33,365 bases of DNA from Spirochaetota bacterium (GTDB taxonomy: Bacteria; Spirochaetota; Spirochaetia; Treponematales; UBA12059): assembly GCA_018816345.1 (NCBI GenBank), contig JAHIWG010000009.1, forward strand, positions 1 through 33,365, given 5' to 3'. A program made the translations under genes and the position numbers. The notes under the pieces are model-generated. The model did no database searches and was not told where the DNA came from. It worked only from the letters and a program-made list of their open reading frames with translations. Within the stretch, counting starts at the first letter, position 1. Every line of letters starts with the position of its first letter. Below are positions 22,891 through 25,188 of the stretch, one piece after another.

Positions 22891-23077
22891 TTGAAGAGGA
22901 GATGGGTTATCGATACGGCGGAGGCCTCTAGGCCTTCCCCGTCGCGCCCTACTCTACGATCATCGGCTTGGGCACGGATAACTTAAGCGCGTTCCGACAG
23001 GCGGAACGCGTCGAGGGAGTCGCCGATAGGCGAGAGGAGGATCATAGGGCGACGCCGGCTAAGACGGAGATCGAATC
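22891..23077 (+). other. Structured, non-coding leader upstream of the first flaB
   Basis: No credible gene lies in the 373-base gap between the lipase start and flaB. This part holds three local inverted repeats: AGGCC/GGCCT (22922-22926/22931-22935); a 9-bp stem CGCGTTCCG/CGGAACGCG with a 5-nt loop (22988-22996/23002-23010); and TCGCC/GGCGA with a GATA loop (23020-23024/23029-23033). They suggest a folded 5' untranslated region. A GAGGAGG string at 23034-23040 has no start codon after it. Confidence 0.45.
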
Positions 23078-23115
23078 GCGGGACAAGGATGCCCCGCTTC
23101 TAGACTCAAGGAGGA
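23078..23115 (+). promoter_or_regulatory. Probable CsrA-binding hairpin plus Shine-Dalgarno of the first flaB
   Basis: GCGGG (23078-23082) pairs with CCCGC (23093-23097); inside, C84-G91 can also pair, leaving AAGGAT as the loop. The loop region ACAAGGATG matches the core of the known CsrA consensus (ACARGGAUG). A second GGA lies in the Shine-Dalgarno AAGGAGG (23108-23114), 23 nt downstream. Two GGA sites at this spacing, one over the ribosome site, are the usual CsrA repression layout. Confidence 0.6.
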
Positions 23116-23119
23116 AGTC

Positions 23120-23980
23120 ATGATCATCAACCACAACATCAGCGCTATGTACGCCAACCGCCAGCTCGGCGTCAACGGTCTTTCCGTGGACAAGAGCATG
23201 GAGAAGCTCGCCTCGGGCCTGCGCGTGAACCGCGCCGGGGACGACGCGTCGGGCCTCGCGGTCTCGGAGAAGATGCGTTCCCAGATCCGCGGCCTGAATC
23301 AGGCCTCGAAGAACGCCGCGAACGGCGTATCGTTCATCCAGACCACCGAGGGCTACCTCCAGGAGAGCCAGGATATACTCCAGAGGCTCAGGGAGCTCTC
23401 TATCCAGGCCGCCAACGGAATCTACACCGCGGAAGACCGCATGCAGATCCAGGTCGAGGTCTCCCAGCTCGTCGACGAGATAGACCGCATCGCCAGCCAC
23501 GCTCAGTTCAACGGGATGAACCTCCTGACCGGGCGATACGCCCGCGAGGACGGCGAGAACCTCATCACCGGTTCGATGTGGTTCCACATCGGCGCCAACA
23601 TGGACCAGCGCGAGCGCGTGTACATAGGCACGATGACCGCCAAGGGACTAGGCGTCAAGCAGATCGGTAGCGAGGAGATCGTGTCGCTGGCCTCCCCGGA
23701 CGGCGCGAACAGGACCATCGGGGTCCTCGACGAGGCCCTGAAGAAGGTCAATAAGCAGCGAGCCGACCTCGGCGCCTACCAGAACAGGCTAGAGCACGCG
23801 GTCCGCGGCATAGATATCGGCGCTGAGAACCTCCAGGCCGCCGAGAGCCGCATCCGCGATACCGACATGGCGTCCGAGATGGTCCGGTACACCAAGGACA
23901 GGATCCTGGTCCAGGCCTCCAGCGCAATGCTCGCCCAGGCCAACCAGAAAACCGCGTCCGTCTTGCAGTTGCTCCAGTAA
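23120..23980 (+). CDS. flaB: Flagellar filament core protein FlaB
   Basis: A 286-residue flagellin forming the core of the periplasmic flagellar filament. The N-terminal helix region [14 protein letters not shown], the stretch [20 protein letters not shown] and the C-terminal [13 protein letters not shown] are the conserved D0/D1 segments. The middle is short, as in spirochaete FlaB, which lack the large variable D2/D3 domains. There is no signal peptide; it is exported by the flagellar type III apparatus. AAGGAGG is 5 nt before the ATG. It has its own leader with a candidate sigma-28 promoter and a CsrA-type hairpin. It is similar to the next gene along its length, the product of an old duplication. 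Confidence 0.97.
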
Positions 23981-24044: not shown

Positions 24045-24182
24045 GACAAATACCCTCGTGCGTATGCCGGCGGAGACGCCAGCCCCCTAGCGGGGACTGG
24101 TATCCCCGCCGTATGGGGCACGAACGGACGGGAACGGGCGCGAGAACACGAACTCCCGGCCCCAACGCCATACGCGCGGGAC

Positions 24183-24223
24183 GCGCGGCAAGGAATGCCG
24201 CGCAGTGAGTCCTGCAAGGAGGG
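24183..24223 (+). promoter_or_regulatory. Probable CsrA-binding hairpin plus Shine-Dalgarno of the second flaB
   Basis: A perfect 7-bp stem, GCGCGGC (24183-24189) with GCCGCGC (24197-24203), displays AAGGAAT as its loop. The Shine-Dalgarno AGGAGGG (24217-24223) holds a second GGA 26 nt downstream. Stem-loop GGA and ribosome-site GGA again form the paired CsrA layout. Upstream, CGGGGA/TCCCCG forms another small stem near 24093-24110. Confidence 0.6.
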
Positions 24224-24227
24224 TCAT

Positions 24228-25076
24228 ATGATAATTAACCACAACATGAGCGCAATGTACGCCAACAGAGCGTTGGGCGTTACGCAAACCGAGCTCAACA
24301 AGAATATGGAGAAGCTCGCTTCCGGCCAGCGCATCAACCGCGCCGGGGACGACGCTTCGGGCCTCGCGGTCTCCGAGAAGCTGCGCGGACAGATCCGCGG
24401 CCTGGGACAGGCTCAGCGTAATATCGAGAACGGCGTGTCCTTCATCCAGACCACCGAGGGCTACCTCCAGGAGACGCAGGACATCCTGCACCGAGTACGC
24501 GAGCTGGCCGTACAGTCGGCCAACGGCATCTACACCGCCGAGGACCGCATGCAGATCCAGGTCGAGGTTTCCCAGCTCGTCGACGAGGTGAACCGCATCG
24601 CCAGCCACGCCCAGTTCAACGGCATGAACATCCTGACCGGACGCTTCTCCAAGGAAGGCGGCCAGATCATGCAGCTGCAGGTCGGCGCCAACATGGACCA
24701 GAACGAGCGGCTCTTCATCGGTACGATGACGGCTCAGGCTCTCGGCCTCCAGGGCGCGCAGGGCACCGCGGAGATGATCTCCATATCCACGCCGGATAGC
24801 GCCAACCAGGCTATCGGCAATCTCGACGCCGCGCTGAAGTCGGTATCGAAGCAGCGCGCCGACCTCGGCGCCTACCAGAACCGCTTCGAGATGGCCTCCA
24901 AGGGCGTCGCTATAGCCGCCGAGAATCTACAGGCCGCCGAGAGCCGCATCCGCGACACCGACATGGCCTCGCAGATGGTCGATTACGTAAAGAACCAGAT
25001 CCTGACGCAGGCCGGCGGAGCTATGCTCGCCCAGGCCAACACCAGGACCCAGTCGGTCATGCAGCTGTTGGGTTAA
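24228..25076 (+). CDS. flaB: Flagellar filament core protein FlaB (second copy)
   Basis: A 282-residue core flagellin closely related to the preceding one. It has the same N-terminus ([14 protein letters not shown]), the same [14 protein letters not shown] block and the same C-terminal I-R-D-T-D-M-A helix, but differs in the central loop ([12 protein letters not shown] instead of the longer version in copy one). The ATG at 24228 is fixed by the Shine-Dalgarno and by alignment; the open frame extends 11 codons upstream. Spirochaetes assemble filaments from several FlaB isoforms, so both copies are probably used together. It is separated from copy one by a 247-nt gap holding two hairpins. Confidence 0.97.
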
Positions 25077-25149
25077 TGAAACCGTTCTGCGATTCGTAGC
25101 GGAGAGCTTCCTGGACGTCGTCTTTCCGCGACGGGTTTCTATGCGACAG

Positions 25150-25188
25150 GAGGGGAGGGATCGCGCCCTCTCCCCTTCACTTTACTAG
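25150..25188 (+). terminator. Possible terminator after the second flaB
   Basis: G-rich AGGGGAGGG (from 25151) faces CCCTCTCCCC (25166-25175) across a short loop, with a bulge, followed by TTCACTTTACT. It is 75 nt beyond the stop and would separate flagellin expression from flaG-fliD. Confidence 0.4.

Follow-up and report, generated by a model that had tools for sequence, protein, structure and literature searches.

The flagellin locus and the flaB1 leader

The window, which is the whole stretch of DNA analysed here (33,365 nucleotides), contains two tandem flagellin genes, flaB1 and flaB2. The features of the first gene and its leader are listed below.

23078–23097, forward strand: SL1 hairpin of the flaB1 leader, with loop AGGA (GGA at 23087–23089), matching the CsrA core ACARGGAUG and ranked first in the genome by covariance model R1
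23103–23119, forward strand: weak hairpin SL2 of the flaB1 leader, with stem GACT/AGTC and loop CAAGGAGGA, which comprises the Shine-Dalgarno sequence and a second GGA (23110–23112)
23076–23122, forward strand: whole flaB1 leader element (SL1, spacer, Shine-Dalgarno sequence and ATG), a covariance-model match of 46.4 bits
23120–23980, forward strand: flaB1, first tandem flagellin, 286 aa, with Pfam Flagellin_N and Flagellin_C

SL1 reads GCGGG-A-CA-AGGA-TG-C-CCCGC, in which five pairs and an A.C mismatch are followed by a C-G and an A-U pair flanking AGGA. The Shine-Dalgarno sequence GGAGG is located at 23110–23114, the start codon ATG at 23120, and the distance from GGA to GGA is 23 nt. Both the hairpin presenting AGGA and the second GGA within the Shine-Dalgarno sequence are thus found where the initial annotation placed them. 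The same annotation claimed that the loop matches the core of the CsrA binding consensus, and this holds in full: ACAAGGATG in SL1, nine consecutive letters, fits ACARGGATG at 9 of 9 positions, the SELEX consensus of CsrA being RUACARGGAUGU (PMC7652899).

Counting both strands, the whole 3.8 Mb genome contains just 11 copies of ACARGGATG. The ten copies other than that in SL1 all overlap open reading frames, and no more than 2–4 contiguous pairs form around their loops. By our arithmetic, the chance of finding ACARGGATG in a given 60-nt leader is about 1e-4. SL1 is predicted for the flaB1 leader by ViennaRNA, but dinucleotide shuffles fold about as well (z 0.15 and -0.21). The single sequence by itself is therefore no proof.

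Upstream of flaB1, a conserved block (CTACTCTACGAT) is located at 22949–22960, and this region contains no sigma28-like match.

Presence and co-distribution of csrA and fliW

Using profile searches against the genome to which the window belongs, we found csrA (87 bits) and fliW (114 bits) adjacent to each other in a flgK-flgL-fliW-csrA cluster; the two genes that the initial annotation presupposed are therefore both present, as neighbours downstream of flgK-flgL. CsrA is a protein of 74 aa which matches the NCBIfam equivalog TIGR00202 above cut-off, and its best solved-structure match is 5dmb_D, a carbon storage regulator homologue, while FliW matches Pfam above cut-off. A flgK/flgL/fliW/csrA-type arrangement is also reported for Treponema denticola and Leptospira (PMC9481697; PMC8668096).

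The distribution of csrA follows that of the flagellins. Among 58 relatives from the order, all FlaB-less genomes (8 of 8) are without csrA and fliW, and all flagellin-less genomes in a phylum sample of 247 (7 of 7) are without csrA, giving 15 of 15 for the order and the phylum sample together. The exceptions, with a flagellin and no csrA match, are mostly incomplete assemblies. Five genomes of the window's own family gave no csrA match, and four of these are less than 90% complete. One genome (G255), 99% complete, gave no csrA match, yet it contains the flagellin leader element (contig C63, L248).

Conservation and covariation of flagellin leaders

We gathered 132 flagellin gene leaders from relatives, in which a hairpin with GGA in its loop was detected in 99 (p <= 0.05 compared with dinucleotide shuffles of the same leader). 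In the alignment of 41 distinct first-tandem leaders (A1), the loop always contains A and GGA, with A, C or U as the N between them, while two-sided changes are found at 8 of 9 stem pairs; 89.4% of the cells are paired, a percentage that is inflated, as it is in alignment A2, because the leaders of both were chosen for GGA in a hairpin loop. The covariation score of A1 is 0.763, whereas shuffled partners give 0.233 and slid partners no more than 0.204. Second-tandem leaders have a like covariation with a five-base loop. Leaders of alignment A5 were chosen by a structure-containing model, so that paired percentages are inflated there as well and stem covariation is to be read as consistency. 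Counts of compensatory changes are less affected by such selection. The stem and the loop GGA, on whose conservation in relatives the initial annotation depended, are thus retained, the loop GGA being invariant in aligned first-tandem leaders and the stem changes compensatory.

The distance between the two GGA sites in tandem leaders is mostly 21–27 nt, which is within both the bridging range (10–63 nt) and the optimum (>18 nt) reported for Escherichia coli CsrA (PMC7652899).

Some second-tandem leaders deviate. In family f3, seven of them (L049, L053–L057 and L062) keep the hairpin and have no GGA in it (e.g. GCATGATGC and AAAGCATGAAGCTTT), which suggests that one paralogue may have escaped CsrA in part of Treponemataceae. 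In genus g26 of family f5, neither the GGA hairpin nor the complementarity between leader and terminator described below is retained in the second-tandem leaders L063, L064, L293 and L294.

The leader element across the phylum

Covariance model R1 is based on 30 leaders, none of which comes from the window's genus. In the window's own genome the flaB1 site ranks first with 46.4 bits, the best non-flagellin match reaches 23.5 bits and the flaB2 leader 23.0 bits. This best non-flagellin match contains a Shine-Dalgarno sequence only, without a GGA hairpin. The next R1 matches, on contigs C14 and C135, were considered as further CsrA targets and rejected, having a Shine-Dalgarno sequence and no GGA hairpin.

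At E<=0.01, R1 also matches flagellin-less genomes, the best of these at 3.1e-6, so a census at that level was dropped, the threshold was set to 1e-6 and weak matches were left uncounted. At E<=1e-6, matches were found in 140 of 247 phylum genomes from 33 families. All inspected matches across the phylum (20 of 20, from 18 families) are flagellin leaders, and the stems of these 20 fetched leaders covary. Leaders of flaB in family f7, which is probably Borrelia-like with a single flaB, score weakly or not at all with R1, and they carry the hairpin by eye, e.g. GACAAA-TGGA-TTTGTC. As judged from sequence and predicted structure, a CsrA-type element is present in front of flagellin genes across the whole spirochaete phylum.

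GGA is frequent and part of Shine-Dalgarno sequences, so that a purine-rich Shine-Dalgarno sequence beside a random hairpin could imitate such an element by chance; the covariation, the first rank of the flaB1 site under R1 and the recurrence across the phylum refute this reading, to which we give practically no weight. It is also very improbable that SL1 is a general mRNA-stability or ribosome-standby hairpin in which GGA is incidental. Leader hairpins are common and the energy of SL1 is ordinary, as such a function would allow, but a stem free to vary around an invariant A-N-GGA loop is the opposite of what a pure stability hairpin should present, and the strong genome matches of R1 fall on flagellins. 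The comparative evidence is decisive here, and it marks SL1 as an evolutionarily maintained candidate docking site for CsrA.

The leaders of flaB2 and of the third flagellin

The second tandem gene has a longer and more elaborate leader, with the features below.

24047–24073, forward strand: putative sigma28-like promoter CAAATACC-N11-GCCGGCGG upstream of flaB2, a consensus match by eye only, conserved in the genus
24101–24182, forward strand: conserved 5' domain of the flaB2 leader, with a long P1 and a nested P2 hairpin, in a layout like Rfam Termite-flg
24136–24143, forward strand: P2 apical loop GGGCGCGA, which would form the 5' side of the proposed pairing between leader and terminator loops
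24183–24203, forward strand: SL1 hairpin of the flaB2 leader, with loop AGGAA (GGA at 24192–24194)
24216–24223, forward strand: flaB2 Shine-Dalgarno sequence AAGGAGGG, with the second GGA at 24218–24220
24228–25076, forward strand: flaB2, second tandem flagellin, 282 aa, with Pfam domains and a start set by alignment and model
25152–25173, forward strand: terminator-like hairpin 3' of flaB2, whose loop region contains TCGCGCCC (25161–25168), complementary to 24136–24143

Alignment and model both place the true start of flaB2 at ATG 24228, and the start in the list of open reading frames (24195) is too early. Downstream of the gene, a second conserved hairpin (GGAGAGCTTCCTGGACGTCGTCTTTCC) is located at 25101–25127, and a CTGGACGTC...TCTTT block recurs 3' of second-tandem flagellins across the order.

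A third, solo flagellin is encoded on the reverse strand of another contig of the genome (C9, L008), and its leader carries the hairpin CGGCA-AGGA-TGCCG. The consensus of this hairpin is CGGCA-NGGA-TGCCG, and it is located farther upstream than in tandem leaders. In the third flagellin and its relatives (L065–L108), another potential hairpin lies between SL1 and the Shine-Dalgarno sequence, with a GGA spacing of 34–57 nt; this intervening hairpin could draw the two CsrA sites closer to each other. Hence the site described in the initial annotation for the first flagellin gene is present there but is not peculiar to it, being found on flaB2 and the third flagellin as well, and each of the three filament flagellins in this spirochaete has a predicted CsrA-type site of the same kind.

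Relation to the Termite-flg RNA family

An Rfam scan of the window at the gathering score returned only a tRNA. In a permissive scan, the flaB2 leader matched Termite-flg (RF01729) below threshold (18.6 bits, where the gathering score is 40), and its best relative from the same genus reached 27.9 bits, while relatives from family f5 match above threshold. Across 294 genomes of the order, there are 67 matches to RF01729 above threshold. Nearly all of the fetched matches (29 of 30) end 17–22 nt before a flagellin start codon, the flagellin is the second of the tandem pair wherever both are on the contig, and every placed match (29 of 29) contains NGGA in its 3' hairpin together with a GGAGG Shine-Dalgarno sequence. 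The accessible part of the founding paper gives neither a function nor a link to CsrA (PMC2864571). The constant NGGA before flagellins argues that the 3' hairpin of this orphan family is very probably a CsrA-type hairpin.

The flaB2 leader of the window likewise directly precedes the second tandem flagellin gene and ends in an NGGA hairpin. Its 5' domain has the same layout as the f5 copies, including the GGCGCGA loop; model R2 recognises this domain across family f1 and in family f4, and its match to f5 is not significant.

Proposed pairing between the flaB2 leader and the terminator-like hairpin

The flaB2 leader loop GGGCGCGA (24136–24143) is complementary to the loop TCGCGCCC (25161–25168) of the hairpin after the stop codon. 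In leaders with GGCGCGA, the exact complement is found 3' of the same gene in 46 of 52, compared with 2.45% for other 7-mers from the same leaders. TCGCGCC is located 3' of 46 of 55 second-tandem genes and of none of 70 first-tandem genes. The same relation was fixed as a prediction beforehand for Treponemataceae: their leaders have GGCGCA, and TGCGCC is found in the majority of the downstream loops. Further re-paired variants exist, such as GGGGGCA/TGCCCCC (L030), AGCGCGA/TCGCGCT (L174 and L225) and GCGCGT/ACGCGC (L292), and G.U forms are found in L045 and L278.

Across 57 distinct loop pairs, three base pairs change on both sides, with 15 such cells against 4.3 after shuffling and none of 500 shuffles equal, a count to be read with the cautions that GCGC is self-complementary, that alignment A8 is anchored on GCGC and that one inherited change fills many cells. 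When the loops were chosen independently by hairpin score, the own-species helix scored 6.13, a value reached in 2 of 20000 permutations, compared with 5.62 for cross-species combinations and 4.09 when loops were shuffled. Extension of the helix past the 7-nt core was tried as covariation evidence and discarded (own 0.70, cross 0.74, permutation p 0.68), so the support for the pairing rests on core changes in other families.

Taken as a whole, the start of the flaB2 message appears to pair with its end. We consider it probable that, throughout Treponematales, flaB2 mRNA is closed into a loop by kissing between the leader and the 3' hairpin beside the CsrA site, or alternatively that the 3' hairpin works as a trans-acting small RNA directed at the leader. 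If true, cis or trans pairing would add a layer of flagellin control.

A model for CsrA control of the flagellins

With high confidence we propose that the flaB1 leader contains two target sites of CsrA, as in hag and flaA; a CsrA dimer would bridge them, and FliW would relieve the repression. The initial annotation read the leader as a CsrA-type control element, a view strengthened by the presence of csrA and fliW, the covarying stem, the invariant loop GGA and the hairpin in putative Borrelia-family leaders. Binding, repression and relief by FliW are inferred from Bacillus, Campylobacter and Borrelia.

In the proposed process, one face of the CsrA dimer would bind the AGGA of SL1 (23078–23097) with high affinity, and the other would reach the GGA of the Shine-Dalgarno sequence in the SL2 loop (23110–23112), 23 nt downstream, thereby blocking the ribosome. 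As flagellin leaves the cell by export and becomes scarcer in the cytoplasm, FliW would be freed to bind CsrA, repression would be relieved, and filament supply would track assembly. The element shared by flaB1, flaB2 and the third flagellin would place the three filament subunits under a common homeostatic switch.

Two other roles for CsrA at these leaders have to be weighed. Flagellin leaders might mainly be a sponge that titrates CsrA off other mRNAs, which is compatible with repression; the flaA mRNA of Campylobacter jejuni has such a second role (PMC4894983), three strong sites are located on presumably abundant mRNAs, and the Rfam scan, which covered the window, contained no CsrB-like RNA. 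However, the second GGA overlaps the Shine-Dalgarno sequence, which would be needless for a pure sponge, and we regard this main role as possible but doubtful. It is unlikely that CsrA activates or stabilises the flagellin mRNA instead of repressing it: a site over the Shine-Dalgarno sequence has the repression geometry of hag, flaA and Borrelia flaB, against which stands the rise of flaB1, flaB2 and flaB4 transcripts on csrA overexpression in Leptospira interrogans (PMC8668096), so that control may be negative in some species and positive in others.

Repression at the double site, our preferred reading, is not a new mechanism, since CsrA repression of flaB is known in Borrelia and CsrA control of spirochaete flagellin is therefore known in kind. 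In the open-licence literature we found no description of a phylum-wide covarying element, of such an element before each flagellin gene in a genome, of the Termite-flg link or of the loop pairing, and an earlier description elsewhere is possible. Scattered reports (Borrelia, Leptospira and a remark on T. denticola) are brought together here as a candidate phylum-wide RNA element with a testable consensus, and the orphan family Termite-flg gains a likely function. Lineages that keep the hairpin and have lost the loop GGA in one paralogue provide natural experiments on paralogue-specific release, and the flaB2 loop pairing is a candidate mode of flagellin mRNA control addressable by compensatory mutation.

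Comparison with known systems

For the proposed loop pairing, icaR of Staphylococcus aureus (PMC3868564) is comparable in that the untranslated 5' and 3' ends of one mRNA base-pair, whereas the present case involves two hairpin loops of a flagellin mRNA, separated by about 1 kb, with compensation across genera, recognised from sequence. RF01729 and the flaB2 leader share their place in the 5' leader of the second-tandem flagellin and a nested hairpin with loop GGCGCGAA, but the window's leader is below the gathering score and is not filed as a member.

For the CsrA site, the available text on T. denticola suggests CsrA sites near the Shine-Dalgarno sequences of flaB1 and flaB2 (PMC9481697) and has a flgN-flgK-flgL-fliW-csrA cluster in common with our case, while structure, covariation and phylum scope are not given in that portion of the account. 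In Borrelia burgdorferi, CsrA was shown experimentally to repress flaB by blocking translation initiation (Sze 2011, as related in PMC3757020 and PMC8668096). Phylum and gene are the same, and the hairpin is common to putative Borrelia-family leaders; the differences are the single flaB and the weak or absent covariation-model score of those leaders. The hag system of Bacillus subtilis (PMC7652899, PMC6529632) likewise has two sites, one over the Shine-Dalgarno sequence, and both fliW and csrA, but a single flagellin target.

The closest architecture is that of flaA in C. jejuni, whose leader has two hairpins each presenting ANGGA (PMC4894983). Shared with it are the second site over the ribosome-binding site, the presence of fliW and csrA, and compensatory changes in relatives, whereas the present system belongs to another phylum, involves three paralogous flagellins and a weak SL2, and is known from sequence alone.
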